This document shows, piece by piece, positions 37,954 through 47,068 of a stretch of 64,000 nt of DNA. The position numbers and the translations under genes were made by a program. The notes beneath the pieces were generated by a model. The model did not search any database. It was not told the origin of the DNA and saw only the letters and a program-made list of their open reading frames with translations. The DNA is from Granulosicoccus antarcticus IMCC3135 (lineage in GTDB: Bacteria > Pseudomonadota > Gammaproteobacteria > Granulosicoccales > Granulosicoccaceae), in NCBI RefSeq assembly GCF_002215215.1, contig NZ_CP018632.1, positions 6,754,501-6,818,500 of the forward strand, in the 5' to 3' direction. The first letter of the stretch is position 1; each line of letters opens with the position of its first letter.

Positions 37954-40443
37954 ATGGGAATACGCGCAAAGCTCGTTCTCTGTCTGTTGGCAGTATTGCT
38001 ACCGATAGTTGCCGTCAGTCTCGTCACAATCAATCTGCTGGAAAACCAACTGGTCGAGCGCACAGAATCGTCGTTGTCTAATACGCAACGTCTGGAAGCG
38101 GCTCGCATCAACGAAATTCTGACTACATATGCCCAAGACGCCAGAAATCTGGCCTCTGACACGCATGTCAAAGAATTCGTCGATGCATCCAATGAATTCC
38201 GTCAGGCCCGACTCGCTGGCCATGACACGAGCACACTGTTGAATACCAGCATTGGTGGCATTGACGGCATAGCGATCATTGACCTTGCCAGCGATTGGCC
38301 ACTCCAGCAACTCGCTCTGGCACTGCAGAGAAAAGCAGGTATCGTCGGTTCCAATATCGTTGAGTTGAGAATTGTCGACATAACGGGCAAGACGCTGGGC
38401 GAAACCATGGGATATACCTGGGAGCCTATCGACTCTGATTTGCTAACGCGATCCATCAACACGGTAAAGACCTCTTTCGGCGAGGCATTTCTCAGCGTGA
38501 GCGATCAAACAAGACTGGGAATCGTATCGCCTATCATCGCTAATAGTGGTGAAGTGGTTGGCGCACTGATGCTGGAAACCCGGCTCAACCCCATTGTCGA
38601 TCTGATTTCAAAACACGAACAGGTCAGCAAGAGCAGCGAAGCCCATATCGCGCAGCCCATGCTAAACGGCGATGCTCAGTTCCTGACGGAGCTACGATTC
38701 GACCGTACTTCAGCATTCAGCAAGATCATTCCCAAGTCTAAAAACCTGCCCATCAATCAGGCCTTGGATGCGCCACGTGGACGTATCTTGCATGCTCGGG
38801 ATTATCGCGGCGTAGACAGTATCCTGGCCATAGAAACCATACCGGCTACCGGCTGGGGCCTGGTTGTCAAAGTTGACACCTCCGAAGCCTTTGGTCCGGT
38901 CAACGAACTACGCCACGTGCTGATGATCACGACTTTCTCCTCCATCGCCTTTGTACTGGTGTGCTACATGTTTTGCCTGGTGCCCATTGCCCAGCGGCTC
39001 AAACGCACGGCGGCAGCCGCACACAAGATAATGAGTGGTGATCTCACTACGCGTGTCAACGATTTCGCACAGGATGAAATCGGCAATCTGGCCAGAACCA
39101 TCGATACCCTGGCAAGGGATCTGGAGTCTGACCAGCAAATTCGCACGGAAGTGGAAGCTCGATTACGACATCAGGCATTGCACGATGAACTCACCGGCCT
39201 GCTTAATCGCAAGTACGCCAACAATGTGATCGAGCAGCTTAATAACGATAGACAGAGCCAGCACTCAGTCATGTTTCTGGACCTGAATGGCTTCAAGGAT
39301 GTCAACGATCTGTATGGACATGCTGCGGGCGATGAAGTACTGATCACCGTTTCACAGAGACTTTCAGATCAGATCGGCGACGGTGTCACTCTGGCACGCT
39401 GGGGTGGAGACGAATTTGTGGTGATTCTGCCCGGCTGCGGCGAAGCTGCTGCCACCGAGACTGCCTTGTCACTGCATTGCGCTTTCGACGAAGCCATCAC
39501 TACCAGCAAGGGCTTGCACCAGCTCAGTTGCAGCATCGGTCTTGCGACATCCAGTGAAACAAAGTCTCTGGACGATGTACTGATGGAGGCTGACATCCTG
39601 ATGTACGAACAAAAGAAGGCAAAGCAGAACGCACGCTCCAGAGGCAGCATGGCGACAAGAACCGTGGAGCGCGCCCTCAAGGAAGATCGACTGGAGATCT
39701 GGTTTCAGCCCATCGTCTCGTTCAAGCGCCCTGGAACCTATGCACTGGCTGGAGCAGAAGCATTCGTTCGTATCCGCTCTCGCGATGGCGGCATCGTGCT
39801 GCCACAGGATTTCATGAACGATGTCGAGTCTATTGAATTGGGGACAGAGCTGGACAGGCGGGTACTTACTCGAGCTCTGAGCTCCCTGGCCCGCTGGCGC
39901 GCATCAGGTGTTGTCGGTGAAGACTTCCGTCTGTCGCTCAACCTTACCGCCCATTCATTGAATGAGCCTGAGTTCAGCGCCACACTGCAAAATCAGTTAA
40001 AGGCCTCCGCTGTCAAACCCGAGCAGGTGATTATCGAACTGCCGCCCAACGCAGCCGTTGACCCACTGCTTCTGGCGCACCTGCGCATGCTGGGTGTCGC
40101 TGTCGCACTCGACAAGCTGGGCACTGACCCCATGAACCTGGGACACACTGCAAGGCTACAGCCGGATATCGCGAAAATTGATCGACGCCTGCTCAGTGAC
40201 GCCATTGTTGCACCGCATGTCGTGTCCATCTGTGAGGAGCGCAGACTTGACATCATCGTCGAGGGAGTTGAGACCCGCGAGCAGATGGCAGCACTGCACA
40301 ACCTGGGCGTCACCTACTTTCAGGGGTATCTTTTCGACAGACCACAACGTGGCGTGGATTTTATAACCCGCTGGGGAAAGTCTTCATCCCCCAGTGTTGG
40401 TGAGCGATTGAATCGGGATGTATCGCTACGACTCGCCGGATGA
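37954..40443 (+). CDS. Membrane sensor with HAMP, GGDEF and degenerate EAL domains
   Basis: 829 residues from ATG 37954, with AGGA 9 bases upstream. Helix 1 is LVLCLLAVLLPIVAVSLVTI, followed by a 300-residue periplasmic Cache-like sensor, helix 2 (MITTFSSIAFVLVCYMFCLV) and HAMP to about 390. The GGDEF domain has an intact GGDEF at 484-488 and no RxxD inhibitory site (QIGD in its place). The EAL domain has EAF at 602-604, NLT, IELPP, LDKLG at 719-723 instead of LDDFG, KID at 741 and EGVE at 770. Diguanylate cyclase activity is likely. c-di-GMP hydrolysis is unlikely because the second Asp of DDFG is Lys; the EAL part may bind c-di-GMP instead. Its 3' end overlaps the convergent ABC permease gene by 18 bases. 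Confidence 0.9.
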   Translation: MGIRAKLVLCLLAVLLPIVAVSLVTINLLENQLVERTESSLSNTQRLEAARINEILTTYAQDARNLASDTHVKEFVDASNEFRQARLAGHDTSTLLNTSIGGIDGIAIIDLASDWPLQQLALALQRKAGIVGSNIVELRIVDITGKTLGETMGYTWEPIDSDLLTRSINTVKTSFGEAFLSVSDQTRLGIVSPIIANSGEVVGALMLETRLNPIVDLISKHEQVSKSSEAHIAQPMLNGDAQFLTELRFDRTSAFSKIIPKSKNLPINQALDAPRGRILHARDYRGVDSILAIETIPATGWGLVVKVDTSEAFGPVNELRHVLMITTFSSIAFVLVCYMFCLVPIAQRLKRTAAAAHKIMSGDLTTRVNDFAQDEIGNLARTIDTLARDLESDQQIRTEVEARLRHQALHDELTGLLNRKYANNVIEQLNNDRQSQHSVMFLDLNGFKDVNDLYGHAAGDEVLITVSQRLSDQIGDGVTLARWGGDEFVVILPGCGEAAATETALSLHCAFDEAITTSKGLHQLSCSIGLATSSETKSLDDVLMEADILMYEQKKAKQNARSRGSMATRTVERALKEDRLEIWFQPIVSFKRPGTYALAGAEAFVRIRSRDGGIVLPQDFMNDVESIELGTELDRRVLTRALSSLARWRASGVVGEDFRLSLNLTAHSLNEPEFSATLQNQLKASAVKPEQVIIELPPNAAVDPLLLAHLRMLGVAVALDKLGTDPMNLGHTARLQPDIAKIDRRLLSDAIVAPHVVSICEERRLDIIVEGVETREQMAALHNLGVTYFQGYLFDRPQRGVDFITRWGKSSSPSVGERLNRDVSLRLAG

Positions 40444-42417
40444 TTCTGGCATAACGCTGCTGGCGGCGCTTCCACGCCGCCAGCTTTCGTAGTAGTAGCG
40501 AGCATCAGCAGAAGGCGTAAAACCCAACTGGAAGCGGAATCGATCGCCAGCGATGGCGTAGTCTGGTATCAGAAATTCGACTCTCTGATCACCCTGCTCA
40601 CCTGTCATCTGCCCTTTGAAAACCGGATCGACCCCACCTGCCAACTGTGTTGAAATGCCTCCGATACGCACGATAAATCGCGCAGGAGATATCAGCTCTT
40701 CCGGTTTGGAGCCAGCCTCCCCCTCGTCATTATCAGCGTCGTTCACAGCTGCATTTTCCGCTTGCGATTCTGCGGGCTTGAGCCGGGCTGTCAATCTGAC
40801 CTGCCGGGTGTCTGGATCACGCTGGATAACGACATCCGAAAACTCTGGATAATGTCGCCCGTCCACTTCTTGATACAGCTCACTCATCTGCTGGCGCCAC
40901 GTTGCATTGACTGTATCCAGATCACAGCCGATTGCGCGAGTTGTATCTCTCCAGAAGATAGCTGCTGGCAAATCGCGAACCGCACCTTCTCTGGAGCTTG
41001 CACGCAGAAAGTCACCCAATGATGACAAGCCGCAAGTATCAACCATGGCACGAGTCCATAAATCACCCAGACTATAATGCAACTCTGCATCAAACTTCTG
41101 TGCAAACCCTGCCGAATCTATCAGATCGTCGAAGCGAATCTTCTGCCGCTGCCAGGCAACGCTGGCCAGCTCCCAGTTGCTACGCCGACGCTCGTTTTCC
41201 GGCACAACTTCGAAAGAGGTATATTGCGCCATACCTTCAATGAAAAATTTGGCAGCCGCGTAATTTTCAGCCAACGCCCGTTCGGATTCCACCGCCTGCA
41301 AAACGTGTGCAGTCTCGTGACTGAGCACTCGACGTTGTGAGACATCTTCACTAAATGCATCCAGGTCCATCTGGATCTTTTTCCACTTGGCAAGCCCTGC
41401 CGCATGCTCACTGCTGGCAGACAGATCAACACGAATCTTCGGAAGATTGCTCACCCCCAGAATCTCACCCAGAGCCTGCAGATCATCCTCGGCATGCTCG
41501 GCTATATACCCCACTACTTGCTCACGTTTGACGTCATAGACAAAGCGATAATGCTCCGTCGCTGTGACAGTCAGACTTTCACCTTCGGCCTTGCCCGTGT
41601 CGACACCGATCCGATAAGCCAGCATCAGTCCCAGCCCCAGAAACCCGACGATACTGAACAGGACATTCACCACCCGCATGCCCCGTGACGAGCTGGGTTT
41701 GCCAGACGTACTGGAGTCGGTACGATTCCACAGTCGATAGGCGATCAGCAGCATGAGAAGTGCAATGCCGGTATGAATTGCCAGAGCATCTTTGTTGACG
41801 ATCAGCGAGGAGCCCTGATATTCATTAGACAGGAGACTGAAGATGCTCCAGTTACCGGATGTACCCAGTGCGCTTTCAGCCCACATCAACCCGACCAGGT
41901 AAAGTCCGTAGATAACCAGTCCAAGCGTGCGGAACCAGGACAGCAGCACGCCGTGAGACAGAATGATGAACATGAACAGGCAATCACGCCAAAGCAGAGT
42001 TGCCCACACCTGCGTGTAGAACAACCCGCCTATGGATTCCGGATTACTTGTCAGCAACGCCCAGTCGATTCCATAGCTCAGTATGTTGATAAGACACAGC
42101 AGTATCCAGGCAGCGGCAACCTTGGCAATGAATACAGCCTTGCGTGACACCGGCAAGGCACGCAGAAAGTCAATCGTCGCATCATCATGCTCCCGAGGGA
42201 ACAGGCTATAGGCTGTCACCAATGCCAGCAGGACCAGAAACACAGCCACAGCAGCATTACTGCTGTATTCACAATAACCTTCGCACCAGCCCCCGAACGT
42301 TTTCTCATCCGCACGCTCGGTAAAGAACTGCATGGCGTACCCAAGCACCAGTACCGCCAGCCACAAGTAGGCAATGGGTAGTAATTGTCTCAGTTCTTTG
42401 GCTATCAAGCGGATCAT
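40426..42417 (-). CDS. ABC-2 type permease fused to a gluzincin-like peptidase domain (intact HExxH)
   Basis: 663 residues. Six membrane helices fill residues 10-270 (for example LLPIAYLWLAVLVLGYAM and VLFSIVGFLGLGLMLAYRIG). A soluble domain then has HETAH at 367-371 and a third possible zinc ligand at Glu394 in FFIEGMAQYTSFE, the spacing of peptidase-MA/gluzincin domains. A beta-rich C-terminal region (residues 510-650) is interrupted by an acidic, low-complexity linker. The start overlaps the stop of its paralogue by 4 bases. It probably pairs with the ATPase and the second permease as an exporter that may process its substrate outside the membrane. Substrate unknown. Confidence 0.8.
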   Translation of the reverse strand: MIRLIAKELRQLLPIAYLWLAVLVLGYAMQFFTERADEKTFGGWCEGYCEYSSNAAVAVFLVLLALVTAYSLFPREHDDATIDFLRALPVSRKAVFIAKVAAAWILLCLINILSYGIDWALLTSNPESIGGLFYTQVWATLLWRDCLFMFIILSHGVLLSWFRTLGLVIYGLYLVGLMWAESALGTSGNWSIFSLLSNEYQGSSLIVNKDALAIHTGIALLMLLIAYRLWNRTDSSTSGKPSSSRGMRVVNVLFSIVGFLGLGLMLAYRIGVDTGKAEGESLTVTATEHYRFVYDVKREQVVGYIAEHAEDDLQALGEILGVSNLPKIRVDLSASSEHAAGLAKWKKIQMDLDAFSEDVSQRRVLSHETAHVLQAVESERALAENYAAAKFFIEGMAQYTSFEVVPENERRRSNWELASVAWQRQKIRFDDLIDSAGFAQKFDAELHYSLGDLWTRAMVDTCGLSSLGDFLRASSREGAVRDLPAAIFWRDTTRAIGCDLDTVNATWRQQMSELYQEVDGRHYPEFSDVVIQRDPDTRQVRLTARLKPAESQAENAAVNDADNDEGEAGSKPEELISPARFIVRIGGISTQLAGGVDPVFKGQMTGEQGDQRVEFLIPDYAIAGDRFRFQLGFTPSADARYYYESWRRGSAASSVMPESSGES

Positions 42418-44342
42418 TGGATCGTCAAACGTTCAGCATGCAACCGTATTGGCTGATGAAATACAGGGCCTTCGTAATCCAGTGCAAAGTAGACTCGATC
42501 ACCTGGTGAGTAGTAGCTGTCCAACACATGCGCCTTCATGTCAGTCCGACACGCGGCAATATCTTCGTATTCATCGCTGACTTCCAGCTCTGTATCGAAG
42601 GGACCAATGTAGTCGTGTTTCATGATGCATTTCCCGCTCAGCCGCGACAGATCTGTCTGCAGGTTCAAGGTGCTGGTTGCTGGCTCATACCAGGCCTCGA
42701 CCTGCTGCGCCCCTTCGGCCGTACGCCCCATACTCAAACGTCCTGTCAGCGCAGGAATGGAGGACAGATAGCGCTGCACCGATTCATCATCGCGCTGCGC
42801 AAGCAGCCAGGCCTGCCAGGCTGTCTGAAACGATTCTATCGGCATGCCCAGCACCTTCTCCAGTCGCAAGCCAACTTTCACACGCCGGTCCTTAAGGCTA
42901 CCGATAGTATTGCCGGCAACCGGACGAACCAGAAATTCATTAGCCAGGGCCAGTACCTTTTCACGTCCCTGACTCTGCTCCAGATACATCATTGCCGCCC
43001 ATGCCAGACTCTCCGCACTGGGGTACGAAAATCTATCGGCGCTCAGCTGCCAGCGTGTGATCAGCTGTGCGGCCGCAGGCTCTGTCTCCAGTACCCATAG
43101 AGCACGTGCTACAAGCTCAGCCTGATGCTCAGGGTTGAGGCCATCTGCTCCATGCTCTACCCACCAGCGAGTAAACCCATCAAGCACCCAATGATAGGGT
43201 TCGAACATTGCACGCCCACCGGTCTGAGCACTGAGCACTCCATGCAGGATGACGGAGTCCAGAATGGCGTCATCGTAGCTATCATGCTGCAACCAGTTAG
43301 CCGTAATGAAGACCCCATCGGCGGTCGCATAGTCGAATTCATGCGGCTTGCGTTCCGGAGCCAGCGCCAGTTTGACATCAGGCATCTGCGCTATTCCCAA
43401 TGATGCCTGCAGCGAACTCAGCGACTTGCTCAAGCGCTGCGCCAGTCTCTGGGCCGAAGCCTCATAGTCATCTTCCAGATACAACACCGACACGGCAGGA
43501 TCGCTCATCCGCACCACGTATTCACTGGAAAACTCCACCGGCTCACGGCTGTTCTTTTCCAGCAGACTTGTCCAGATTGCCAGCCCCGACGCCGCCAGTA
43601 CTCCCAGTGCCACATAGTCGCGTCGCGTCATGGGTTTGGCAAGACGTTCAACCACTGAGCCTTCGCCTACGCGTGTCAGGATAAAACCTGCGAGGGTGAA
43701 CATCAGTGCCATGAAGATCGTACCCAGCATGTCACACCAGGGCACAAGGTCTCGTTCGAAGACAAACAATTGATCATCCATCAACCCGAACGGTGCAACA
43801 CGTCCCGAGTCAATACCCGGATACCAGGCAATCAATGCAATCAAGGCTGCACTGACCAGATACAAGGCAATACGCAAGTGACCACACAGAGAAAAACAGA
43901 AGACAACACTCCAGTAGAGTGAGGTCATGATCAGTGTCTTGCCGATGATCAGCAGTACGTAATCCTGCGTGACATCATCTGCAATGCCAGCCTCATGAGC
44001 TGCCATCAACACCATGACTACTGCCAGTGTGGCCAGGTAGAACCACCCCAGCAAAAATTTGAGTAACAGTGGCAGGGTCGGACCGACGGGCAATGCCTCG
44101 ACAAACAGTCGTGTGCCACTCAGATATTCGCGCACAATCAGGCGATTACCGACGATCAGAGCGATAAGCGGCAAAAAGCTCATCAGAGCAAATCGCACTA
44201 TCTCGAACGGACTCATGCTGTAGGGAGCTTCGCTATTCCAGGCGAGCAACAACAACACCATGGCCAATGCACCGCCACCGAGAAACACAGCCGCCAGGCG
44301 GTGTTCGCGAATATCCTTGCCTAACAGGGAGCTGAGCGCCAT
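42414..44342 (-). CDS. ABC-2 type permease fused to a pseudo-peptidase domain
   Basis: 642 residues with the same layout as the downstream paralogue: helices in residues 15-265, then a soluble domain and a C-terminal beta-rich part ending EGPVFHQPIRLHAERLTIQ. The position equivalent to HExxH reads HGVLS (367-371) and the third ligand Glu is Asp388 in HWVLDGFTRWWVEHG. The first His is kept but the catalytic Glu and second His are lost, so it should be inactive as a peptidase. It may act as a structural or substrate-binding partner. It lies 8 bases behind the ATPase gene. Confidence 0.78.
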   Translation of the reverse strand: MALSSLLGKDIREHRLAAVFLGGGALAMVLLLLAWNSEAPYSMSPFEIVRFALMSFLPLIALIVGNRLIVREYLSGTRLFVEALPVGPTLPLLLKFLLGWFYLATLAVVMVLMAAHEAGIADDVTQDYVLLIIGKTLIMTSLYWSVVFCFSLCGHLRIALYLVSAALIALIAWYPGIDSGRVAPFGLMDDQLFVFERDLVPWCDMLGTIFMALMFTLAGFILTRVGEGSVVERLAKPMTRRDYVALGVLAASGLAIWTSLLEKNSREPVEFSSEYVVRMSDPAVSVLYLEDDYEASAQRLAQRLSKSLSSLQASLGIAQMPDVKLALAPERKPHEFDYATADGVFITANWLQHDSYDDAILDSVILHGVLSAQTGGRAMFEPYHWVLDGFTRWWVEHGADGLNPEHQAELVARALWVLETEPAAAQLITRWQLSADRFSYPSAESLAWAAMMYLEQSQGREKVLALANEFLVRPVAGNTIGSLKDRRVKVGLRLEKVLGMPIESFQTAWQAWLLAQRDDESVQRYLSSIPALTGRLSMGRTAEGAQQVEAWYEPATSTLNLQTDLSRLSGKCIMKHDYIGPFDTELEVSDEYEDIAACRTDMKAHVLDSYYSPGDRVYFALDYEGPVFHQPIRLHAERLTIQ

Positions 44343-44350
44343 GAGTATCG

Positions 44351-45301
44351 CTACGCGTTAGCTACAACAGCGATAAAGACGTCTTCCAGCGACATGGAGT
44401 CGTGTCGCCAGCCCGGAGCCAGAAGAATTTCATGCGATGCCAGAACCTCTTGTGAGAATTGCAGACTGACCACCCAACGCCCCTGTCGCTCACCTTCCTT
44501 GAGCACACGCAGTCTTTGCCGGGAGAACTCACCGGGCATGGAACCTGGGATGTAATCCTGCATGGCAATGGACCATGTTCCGATACTGTTGCGTAGAGGA
44601 TCCAGCTCACCATCGTAGACAGTTCGACCGGACTCAACGATACCGATGCGATCTGCCACCGCTTCGATTTCATCAATCAGATGAGTGGAGAAGAAAGTGG
44701 TCGCACCATCCTGCATGGTTTGCTCTCTGACCAGGTCAAGAAACTCACGACGTGCAACCGGATCCATACCCGCCGTAGGCTCATCCAGTATCAGCAACTG
44801 AGGTCGCGTGGACAAAGCCAGGGTCAGGGCCAGTTTGGCTTTCATGCCCCCGGAGAATGTGCCGATGCGACGACCAGGTGGTAATTCGAAATCTGTCATC
44901 AGCTTCTGATAACGCTTTTCATCCCAACGCGGATAGAAGCCACGTACGAAGCGCGACAACACCTTGGGTGTCATCCACGGATACATATTCTGTTCCTGAG
45001 CCACGTAGCCGATTCGCTGCCGGATGCCGACAACATCAGAATGCAAACTCTTGCCGAACACATTGATATGGCCAGCATCGCAACGAAGAATACCCATGAG
45101 TATTCGGATTGCCGTAGACTTTCCAGCACCATTACGGCCCAGAAACCCAAATACTTCCCCTGGATAGACGGCCAGAGACAAGCCATCCAGCACCGTCAGG
45201 GAACCGAAAGACTTGCGCACATCCTGCAGGGCCAGTACGGGAGTACCTGCCGTGCGGTGATTGATATTTAACGAGGGCTCATCAGCCAGATCGATCATCA
45301 T
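44351..45301 (-). CDS. ABC transporter ATP-binding subunit
   Basis: About 316 residues from ATG 45301 (the frame is open to 45382 but the upstream part overlaps the divergent gene). Walker A is GRNGAGKST, the Q loop YVAQEQNMYPW, the signature FSGGMKAKLALTLAL, Walker B LLILDEPTAGMDP and the switch His in FFSTHLIDEIE. The C-terminal extension suits drug/lipid exporters of the ABC-2 (CcmA/YadG) type. It heads the three-gene operon with the two peptidase-like permeases. Confidence 0.9.
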   Translation of the reverse strand: MMIDLADEPSLNINHRTAGTPVLALQDVRKSFGSLTVLDGLSLAVYPGEVFGFLGRNGAGKSTAIRILMGILRCDAGHINVFGKSLHSDVVGIRQRIGYVAQEQNMYPWMTPKVLSRFVRGFYPRWDEKRYQKLMTDFELPPGRRIGTFSGGMKAKLALTLALSTRPQLLILDEPTAGMDPVARREFLDLVREQTMQDGATTFFSTHLIDEIEAVADRIGIVESGRTVYDGELDPLRNSIGTWSIAMQDYIPGSMPGEFSRQRLRVLKEGERQGRWVVSLQFSQEVLASHEILLAPGWRHDSMSLEDVFIAVVANA

Positions 45302-45365: not shown

Positions 45366-45983
45366 ATGCCCAACACGTTCAACTTCTCGTGCCAGTGCCG
45401 AACTTTAAAAGGTACGGTTGAGCTGCCTGATATGCGATCTCTGACACGCCTCGTCTGTTACTGCGAGGACTGTCAAGCCTACGCACGACACCTGAAGCCC
45501 AGCGAACCGGTACTCGGACCGCACGGTGGCACTGATTTTGTGCAGGTGTCACCCGCTCATTTTCACATCAAACGTGGCATGGAAAAACTGGGTAACCTGC
45601 GTCTGAGCGAGTCGGGCCTCTACCGCTGGCATGCCACCTGTTGTAATACACCACTTTGTAATACACCCCCGAACCCATCCATGCCCTTCGTCGGTTTGAT
45701 CACCAACAATCTGGTGTGTAACCAGAGCACGCTGGCCAACAAGGTTGGCCCTGTCAGACTGGGTGTCTGCGCCGGCTCCCAATACCCTATCAGTGCTGAT
45801 TGGCCGGTCGCCAGGAACTTCGGTTTCAAAGCCCTGACCCGCACGCTGCTCAATATCGGACGCTGGCGCATTGCCGGTGATCACACCCGTTCAACTCTGA
45901 TTGACGCCGAGACCGGCAAGCCGGTGATTGAACCCTATACGCTCAATGAGACAGAGCGCAAAGAGCTTTACACCACAGCCTGA
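45366..45983 (+). CDS. GFA/CENP-V-like zinc-binding protein (DUF6151 type)
   Basis: 205 residues. The N-terminal CQC (10-12), CYCEDC and a later CCNTPLCNTPP cluster fit the glutathione-dependent formaldehyde-activating (GFA/Mss4-like) zinc fold; TPPNPSMPFVGL is typical of the DUF6151 branch. The second Cys in CNTPLCNTPP is at a place where many homologues have Gly; two copies of TGTAATACACC (45642 and 45657) encode it. Enzyme activity is not established for this group. Divergent from the ABC operon (64-bp gap). Confidence 0.7.
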   Translation: MPNTFNFSCQCRTLKGTVELPDMRSLTRLVCYCEDCQAYARHLKPSEPVLGPHGGTDFVQVSPAHFHIKRGMEKLGNLRLSESGLYRWHATCCNTPLCNTPPNPSMPFVGLITNNLVCNQSTLANKVGPVRLGVCAGSQYPISADWPVARNFGFKALTRTLLNIGRWRIAGDHTRSTLIDAETGKPVIEPYTLNETERKELYTTA

Positions 45984-46030: not shown

Positions 46031-47068
46031 TCAACGGTCGTTAAAGCCACTGACCTTGCGAATGATATAACCGCCTGAGCGATCATCCAGTTCCATGCTC
46101 AGATACCCTCTGGATTGTGCTTCTTCGAGCATCTTGCCGAATGAATCAAAACCATAGTAGCTTTCGTTGAATCCGGGGCGGCGTCGCTTCAGAGTCTGCT
46201 TGATCATCGAGCCCCAGAGCTTGTCGTTGCCATCGCGATCAATACTCAGTGCAAGGGCGGTTTCCACCACCAGCTCGAGCCCTTCGAGCATCAGCTCTTC
46301 GCCGCCATCACTATCATCGGCAGCGCCAGTATCGTCAGCGGCATCGTCAGTTCCCGCATCTACGGGTACTTCAGCCACTACCACCTCAACGGCTTTGCCT
46401 CGCTTGCGACGTCCCTTGGGCGGCGTCTCAGTCGCAGCGACAGCAACCTCCTTGAGCTGGGCGACATCAACGTCCATCTCCTGAGTCGCATCAGCGGCCT
46501 CATTAGCAGTCGTGGACTCATCCTTGCTCTTGGTGGCTCGCACAGCACGCTTCTTGGCGCGCTTGCGTGTCGGTTGCTTGCGCTCCAACTCGCGCACCAG
46601 ATCATCGTAGTATATAAACTCATCGCAGTTATTGATCAGCAGGTCTGATGTGGAGTTCTTGACCCCGACACCAATAACTGTTTTGGCATTCTCGCGCAGT
46701 TTGGAAACCAGCGGCGAAAAGTCAGAATCACCACTGATAATGACAAATGTATCAACGTGGGACTTGGTGTAACACAGGTCCAGTGCGTCCACCACCATGC
46801 GGATATCGGCTGAATTCTTGCCCGACTGCCGTACATGCGGGATATCGATCAGCTCGAAGGATGCCTCATGCATGGGCACCTTGAAATCCTTGTAACGATT
46901 CCAGTCGCAGTAGGCCTTCTTGACCACAATACTGCCCTTCACCAATAGTTTTTCAAGAATGAAGCTGATATCGAACTTCTGATACTTTGCGTCCCTGACA
47001 CCAAGAGCGATATTTTCGAAATCGCAGAACAGGGCAAGTTTTTTGTTATCGTCAGACGAACCTGTCAT
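46031..47068 (-). CDS. NYN-domain ribonuclease-like protein with C-terminal OST-HTH/LOTUS-like domain
   Basis: 345 residues. The N-terminal NYN/PIN-like domain (9-165) keeps the acidic residues in LFCDFENIA (Asp16), NSADIRMVVDALD (Asp88, Asp94) and ISGDSDFSPL (Asp114, Asp116). A 100-residue low-complexity linker, first Lys/Arg-rich then acidic (residues 165-270), leads to a C-terminal LOTUS-like domain (LWGSMIKQTLKRRRPGFNESYYGFDSFGKMLEEAQSRGYLSM). The family is a predicted metal-dependent RNase with an RNA-binding module; the RNA target is unknown. Single gene. Confidence 0.85.
   Translation of the reverse strand: MTGSSDDNKKLALFCDFENIALGVRDAKYQKFDISFILEKLLVKGSIVVKKAYCDWNRYKDFKVPMHEASFELIDIPHVRQSGKNSADIRMVVDALDLCYTKSHVDTFVIISGDSDFSPLVSKLRENAKTVIGVGVKNSTSDLLINNCDEFIYYDDLVRELERKQPTRKRAKKRAVRATKSKDESTTANEAADATQEMDVDVAQLKEVAVAATETPPKGRRKRGKAVEVVVAEVPVDAGTDDAADDTGAADDSDGGEELMLEGLELVVETALALSIDRDGNDKLWGSMIKQTLKRRRPGFNESYYGFDSFGKMLEEAQSRGYLSMELDDRSGGYIIRKVSGFNDR

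Follow-up and report, generated by a model that had tools for sequence, protein, structure and literature searches.

An ABC-2 permease pair of Granulosicoccaceae with one intact and one apparently degenerate peptidase-like outer domain

Introduction

Among ATP-binding cassette (ABC) exporters, PCATs carry a peptidase and HlyB keeps an inactive C39-like domain (PMC8277102). Here we describe a locus of three genes, hereafter the trio, in a stretch of 64,000 nucleotides of Granulosicoccus antarcticus IMCC3135 (contig NZ_CP018632.1, positions 6,754,501 to 6,818,500; the whole stretch is referred to as the window). The trio encodes one ABC ATPase and two permeases, permA and permB, both of which continue from a membrane part into a putative outer domain. 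That of permB keeps the HExxH signature and the downstream glutamate of gluzincin peptidases, whereas that of permA lacks the signature yet conserves a compact set of residues at the corresponding place.

The PCAT and HlyB exporters would work like the trio, in that an ABC exporter is equipped with a peptidase or with a retained dead one. In PCATs and HlyB, however, type IV transporters bear a C39 cysteine peptidase domain N-terminally, whereas the ABC-2 permeases of the trio bear a zinc-type domain C-terminally; no Pfam match to the C39 family was found in the three trio proteins at E values up to 1. NosDFY, a type V ABC system, passes the energy of ATP to a periplasmic partner, but its permease NosY ends after the membrane part (248–275 residues in the chains listed) and has no peptidase domain. 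AlbE and AlbF are linked to a transporter operon. Two-part M16 peptidases such as AlbF/AlbE, whose inverted motif HXXEH and fold differ from those of the trio domains, typically hold the active site in one half and need both halves (PMC12731061). The closest known kind consists of single-chain fusions of an ABC-2 permease with an outer metallopeptidase, for which no described function was found in our literature searches. No published account of an ABC system with a pair of active and dead peptidases was found among the papers listed (all 10 matches of one search, 15 of 6,527 of another), as judged from titles and the openings of abstracts; one candidate (PMC10354927) is unrelated.

An Intact and a Lost Peptidase Signature

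The original prediction, made from the letters of the window alone, placed HETAH at residues 367–371 and Glu394 in permB, and HGVLS at 367–371 and Asp388 in permA. All of these were found in the sequence as described, and so was the layout said to be common to both permeases, namely a membrane part, an outer domain and a C-terminal part (Table 1). That the two motifs bear identical residue numbers is partly coincidence.

In permB, His367, Glu368, His371, Gln374 and Glu394 are kept in all 31 aligned rows, and the spacing HExxH-x22-E is constant throughout, at identities down to 31%. A further, very divergent copy reads HETVH...IEGMA, which brings the conservation of HExxH and the glutamate to 32 of 32 copies. 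A chance occurrence of HExxH was rejected given this invariance over 31 rows. Failure of the motif to be conserved in homologues had been named beforehand as the result that would overturn the prediction, and on this point the claim survived. With HExxH and a downstream glutamate, permB carries the motif of the gluzincins of clan MA(E), the binding of zinc being presumed from these residues.

The corresponding site of permA was counted in 31 copies, with L059 and L060 left out because the site falls outside their covered sequence. None of the 31 has HE..H at the site, and by motif permA is thus not an active gluzincin; one such string, at residue 470 in L038, lies elsewhere in the protein. Nevertheless, R377, E381, W385, D388 and G389 are found in 31/31 rows and H367 and H384 in 30/31. 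Six residues of the 256-residue domain are invariant, and five of these fall within a stretch of 37 residues (p 2.7e-4 in a simple hypergeometric draw, the stretch having been picked after the alignment was seen). With the motif lost and this stretch conserved, the domain is not simply decaying. In a single case, L045, the most divergent permA, H367 and H384 are both gone while E381 and D388 are kept, as if the two histidines shared a site.

Strict Pairing of the Permeases

The pairing was evaluated in 48 genomes of Granulosicoccaceae, a family of marine bacteria, in which permA was sought by tblastn and by profile and permB by profile. Both permeases are present in the same 32 genomes and none of the 48 holds one alone; G277, counted as a thirty-third genome for permB, contributes a frame of 257 residues that matches profile positions 62–116 only (2.2e-4). 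The survey of genomes that the prediction had proposed thus showed both permeases in two thirds of the family. The organization was read in 32 loci taken from 31 genomes other than that of the window, L002–L006 duplicating five other loci and being counted once. All three genes are present in 28 of the 32 loci, two of the 28 being truncated at the edge of a contig, and they run ATPase-permA-permB without exception; permA and permB overlap by 4 bases in 23 of these 28. Loci in which a gene is missing at a contig end (L042, L045, L059, L060) are left out of the gap count, and those with one gene cut (L034, L041) are included. In the window, the genes follow this order on the minus strand, with a gap of 8 bases between the ATPase gene and permA. 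The claimed tie of both permeases to one ATPase is consistent with the single ATPase gene, the strict pairing and the fixed order.

Full-length permB was confined to Granulosicoccaceae in profile searches of 369 genomes of the class and 398 of the phylum, two samples that overlap and in which at most three candidates were scored per genome. Outside the family, 13 of the 369 and 14 of the 398 genomes gave short matches to the membrane part (E 1e-5 to 7e-4). One match, in G120 (1 of 274 genomes, E 2.2e-4, residues 320–397), was rejected as chance, since frames of more than 280 residues in L008 hold no HE..H. No match to permA or permB was found in 72,556 plasmid records. Other phyla were reached only by a single contig scan suited to close relatives, in which the named relatives were five Granulosicoccus loci. 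Within the samples searched, the trio-type split arrangement with a degenerate second peptidase domain was seen only in Granulosicoccaceae.

Homology of permA and permB

Compared as full-length profiles, permA and permB align over 530 columns (hhalign 97.5%, E 6.8e-12). The score is driven by the membrane parts, which by themselves reach 95.0% (E 3.5e-8) and are, by profile comparison, homologous. The outer domains are probably homologous as well: their match forms one colinear stretch (permA 294–332, permB 299–337) with a score of 26.7, whereas none of 150 column shuffles exceeds 21.2. MAFFT places permA Asp388 opposite permB Glu394 and permA His367 opposite permB His371, whereas hhalign sets permA His367 beside permB Ser366, such that the two methods disagree on which zinc histidine was replaced. 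Hence, the idea of a duplicated permease-peptidase of which one copy became a pseudoenzyme is borne out for the membrane parts and for the motif, kept in one copy and lost in the other, and is only probable where the common origin of the outer domains is concerned.

Table 1. Features of the trio in the window (positions count from the first nucleotide of the window).
Feature	Position	Strand	Basis
ABC ATPase of the trio, 316 aa	44351..45301	-	PF00005 3.8e-29; Walker A, signature, Walker B, H-loop
permA permease of 642 aa, peptidase-like domain degenerate	42414..44342	-	permB partner in 32/32 genomes
permA membrane part, residues 1-262, seven predicted helices	43557..44342	-	hydropathy, model helices; hhalign to permB
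permA peptidase-like domain, residues 265-525	42768..43550	-	gluzincin rows in low-confidence model
permA pseudo-active-site stretch, residues 360-396	43155..43265	-	conserved residues
permA HGVLS, residues 367-371	43230..43244	-	sequence
permA Asp388	43179..43181	-	31/31 rows; opposite permB Glu394 in MAFFT
permA predicted beta-sandwich (FN3-like), residues 526-642, with conserved Cys572/Cys598	42417..42767	-	fold rows at 528-641; Cys 32/32
permB permease of 663 aa, peptidase signature intact	40426..42417	-	start lies 4 bases inside permA
permB ABC-2 membrane part, residues 1-268, seven predicted helices	41614..42417	-	PF12730 3.7e-8 and PF12679 3.6e-7, both over cut-off; NosY Z 14.4
permB gluzincin-like peptidase domain, residues 270-525	40843..41610	-	invariant motifs; hhalign to fusion catalytic domain
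permB HETAH, residues 367-371	41305..41319	-	HE..H in 31/31 rows
permB Glu394, presumed third zinc ligand	41236..41238	-	31/31; aligned with Glu of Peptidase_MA_2 and M1-fusion proteins
permB C-terminal part, residues 526-663, beta-rich in poor model	40429..40842	-	predicted structure

The membrane part of permA in the window stays below the Pfam cut-off (13.9 vs 27 bits). PF12730 is listed for 31 of 31 permB and 19 of 31 permA members at E values up to 0.1.

Relationship to Peptidase Families

Membership of permB in peptidase family M1 was tried and rejected. GxMEN is the motif of M1 exopeptidases, and G.[MS]EN occurs in none of the 31 permB rows. permB gave no match to PF01433 at E values up to 1, and this family is absent from the 20 Pfam families listed for the 31 members at E values up to 0.1. 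No Pfam peptidase family exceeds its cut-off for permB, and the matches below threshold are mixed (DUF6055 in 26 of 31, eCIS_core in 11, Peptidase_M48 in 3). On the other hand, the permB domain aligns with Peptidase_MA_2 (PF13485) proteins of the same genomes over 49 columns (hhalign 26.5%, E 7e-4; 0/100 shuffles as high), and the alignment falls on HExxH and the glutamate, HEIAHVF...SEGLSVY in the Peptidase_MA_2 protein standing against HETAHVLQ...IEGMAQY in permB; the likeness covers the motif region only. The profile search suggested at the outset against the peptidase-MA and M1 families thus yielded an alignment of the motif region with Peptidase_MA_2 proteins, but no M1 membership and no listing of permB or permA under PF13485.

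A Split Variant of ABC-2/Metallopeptidase Fusions

A weak M1 match in a frame of 1,216 residues, among 19 genomes of which 12 belong to the genus, led to a fusion protein in G312. This protein, P0004, is encoded at L123:5341-8979 next to an ATPase gene (both together at L123:5341-9858), and exceeds no Pfam cut-off itself (M1 21.1 vs 27.7 bits). G312 holds both the fusion and the trio, and the two arrangements therefore coexist in one genome. With P0004 as a tblastn query, 33 of 349 phylum genomes matched, 26 match rows in 23 genomes spanning most of the length, and HExxH with the glutamate is present in all 24 fusions examined (the 23 loci read and P0004). We take the product of these genes to be what is annotated as 'ABC transporter permease/M1 family aminopeptidase'. 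Fusions of this type had been described in the original prediction as known in other phyla; they are not confined to those, as 23 of 349 genomes of the own phylum and one genome of the genus hold them.

The relation of the trio to the fusions is carried mainly by permB, which aligns with the second membrane half and linker of the fusion over 271 columns (hhalign 95.4%, E 1.9e-8). The alignment of its outer domain to the catalytic domain of the fusion falls on HExAH and E.[ML]AQY (38.3%, E 3.3e-4), with 0/100 shuffles scoring as high. For permA the match to the fusion half is weaker (18.8%, E 0.0012), and the membrane part alone gives 8.3%, above 100/100 shuffles. Like permB, the fusion joins an ABC-2 membrane part directly to an outer HExxH peptidase and lies next to an ATPase gene. 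The fusion is, however, a single chain of ~1,160–1,330 residues that unites both membrane halves with one peptidase, whereas the trio, being encoded by two overlapping permease genes, is not a single chain and has two outer domains, one of them dead; permB also lacks the ~260 residues found between linker and HExxH in P0004. Homology of permB to the second half of the fusion indicates that the trio is a split variant carrying a second, degenerate peptidase domain. The trio is thus a variant of the ABC-2/metallopeptidase systems rather than a separate kind; judged from profiles and motifs, it works like a split ABC-2/peptidase system, and permB fails the tests used here for an M1 aminopeptidase.

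Predicted Structures and Topology

Structure models were built from only six close sequences each. The membrane part of the permB model, itself of low confidence, resembles NosY over 220 residues (Z 14.4, root-mean-square deviation 4.6; Foldseek E 0.02), with LptF, CcmB, PmtCD, ABCG, ABCA and WzmWzt among the other fold matches. In the likewise low-confidence model of permA, a protein devoid of any HExxH, gluzincins take the top 13 places by Z (7.8–8.6), including collagenases G, H and T, a cold-active M1 aminopeptidase and IRAP. The first four Foldseek rows for permA include IRAP, PepN and a peptidase of family M61, at E values (0.04–0.1) that are not significant. Residues 528–641 of the permA model resemble beta sandwiches of the FN3 type. 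In profile searches against solved structures, permB gave CcmB (E 0.99) and a kinase that is unrelated, and permA gave 33 rows (E 0.15–3.1) that were set aside as chance, except possibly NosY (E 3.1).

Two pairs of cysteines are conserved in the outer parts, C572/C598 of permA in 32/32 and C462/C498 of permB in 31/31 copies, and basic residues outnumber acidic ones in the loop before helix 7. Together, these features suggest that the outer domains are periplasmic. A separate CxxxC pair, Cys45-Cys49 of permB (42271-42285, minus strand), lies in the predicted first outer loop, each cysteine being kept in 29 of 31 rows, and could form a disulfide or a metal site.

Proposed Mechanism and Alternative Explanations

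We consider the anatomy of the trio described above to be highly probable. The best-supported reading is that permA and permB form a NosY-like, type V ABC-2 machine, a heterodimer in which one half has an active zinc peptidase outside the membrane and the other is its conserved inactive partner; we regard it as plausible, though short of probable. The inactive domain of HlyB and the two-part M16 peptidases are precedents for its components. In such a machine, a homodimer of the ATPase would drive a permA/permB heterodimer, each permease contributing six ABC-2 helices and a seventh that would place the C-terminal domain in the periplasm. The permB domain would act as a gluzincin-type zinc metallopeptidase (HExxH-x22-E) and that of permA as a degenerate copy retained as its partner. 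ATP-driven motion of the membrane halves would join the two outer domains, with permA holding or positioning a peptide or protein, or sensing a ligand, and permB cutting the substrate during extrusion or presentation on the periplasmic face of the inner membrane. The mechanism stated in these terms is tentative. Its more specific form, an ATP-gated periplasmic chamber of two parts, one active gluzincin and one pseudo-gluzincin whose dead half (H367, E381, H384, D388) would be a substrate or metal sensor, is doubtful.

The doubled outer domain, with one copy catalytically lost yet conserved, amounts to a natural experiment separating binding or gating from cutting. Should this reading hold, the trio would be a periplasmic metalloprotease counterpart to peptidase-bearing exporters such as PCATs.

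Several observations weigh against this reading. The mean predicted local distance difference test score (pLDDT) is 48.5 for permA and 47.0 for permB, and falls below 30 around the HExxH site of permB. Neither model gave a Foldseek E value below 0.001, single-protein sequence searches found no relative of solved structure, and best Z scores of 7–8 are typical of models that have no true relative. For permB, the peptidase rows (PepN and collagenase, Z 5.2–5.8) stand amid unrelated folds, and hhalign of its domain with PepN-type M1 gives 1.3% over eight columns. The outer domains of permA and permB compared alone reach only 6.7% (E 0.005), or 1.3% (E 0.04) in the reverse direction, and one of 100 shuffles outscores the comparison of the permA domain with the catalytic domain of the fusion. 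Finally, no neighbour or substrate gene (frames of at least 60 codons) is common to all clades.

Export with cleavage is ranked first, and switching by mechanotransmission second. According to this second explanation, nothing is exported: motion of the membrane part driven by ATP would toggle the permB peptidase, permA would be regulatory, and the substrates would already be in the periplasm. That NosY is the best fold match, that LptF and CcmB also appear, and that a cargo gene linked to the trio was not found are in its favor. However, the peptide and lipid exporters PmtCD, ABCG, ABCA and WzmWzt are among the fold matches too, and the best NCBIfam model for the ATPase, although below its cut-off (184 vs 350 bits), is that of the peptide exporter PmtA. 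We consider pure switching unlikely.

It is improbable that the outer domain of permA has no peptidase ancestry and is an unrelated helical domain whose likeness to the permB site through HGVLS and Asp388 is accidental. The low profile probability at the domain level, the weak or missing matches to the fusion and the inconsistent register of His367 are what such an origin would predict; yet the colinear match scores above all 150 shuffles, the model lists gluzincins first, and the layout is common with permB.

Still less probable is a role in self-protection, in which the pump would expel or detach membrane-active peptides or toxins for permB to destroy outside. The ATPase is nearest to the models PmtA and DrrA, although it reaches the cut-off of neither, and PmtCD is among the fold matches of permB, but the loci hold no bacteriocin, sensor kinase or regulator common to the clades, and the inheritance of the trio looks strictly vertical, with no copy on plasmids. 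That the permB domain is no peptidase, its HExxH being structural or serving another use of metal and both domains only binding substrate, would fit the lack of a Pfam peptidase family at cut-off, the mixed matches below it and a model useless at the site, but it is hard to reconcile with residues H, E, H and E and a 22-residue spacing invariant to 31% identity and aligned with those of real gluzincins, and is very unlikely.

Gene Neighborhood

The genes beside the trio vary by clade. A protein with an NYN domain (six loci) and a cation antiporter (five) are encoded upstream among the closer relatives. In four genomes (L040:1-2932, L041, L042, L044), a rhomboid protease gene (PF01694, 3.6e-17 in L041) and two genes for proteins of no Pfam family adjoin the ATPase gene upstream; all have the direction of the ATPase gene, and they perhaps form one operon. 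A protein resembling mechanosensitive channels is encoded downstream in four and a DUF4159 protein upstream in three. The expectation of precursor peptides encoded nearby was disappointed, none common to the clades being found beside the trio among frames of at least 60 codons. As no neighbor is universal, the trio looks complete in itself, and the gene for its substrate probably lies elsewhere.

In the window itself, a DUF6151/GFA-like gene (45366-45983, plus strand) lies between the ATPase gene and the NYN gene; it is gone in L002, where ~100 bases separate those two genes. The NYN-domain protein (46031-47068, minus strand; 6.9e-36) shows a sub-threshold match to OST-HTH/LOTUS (E 0.11) at its C-terminal end.

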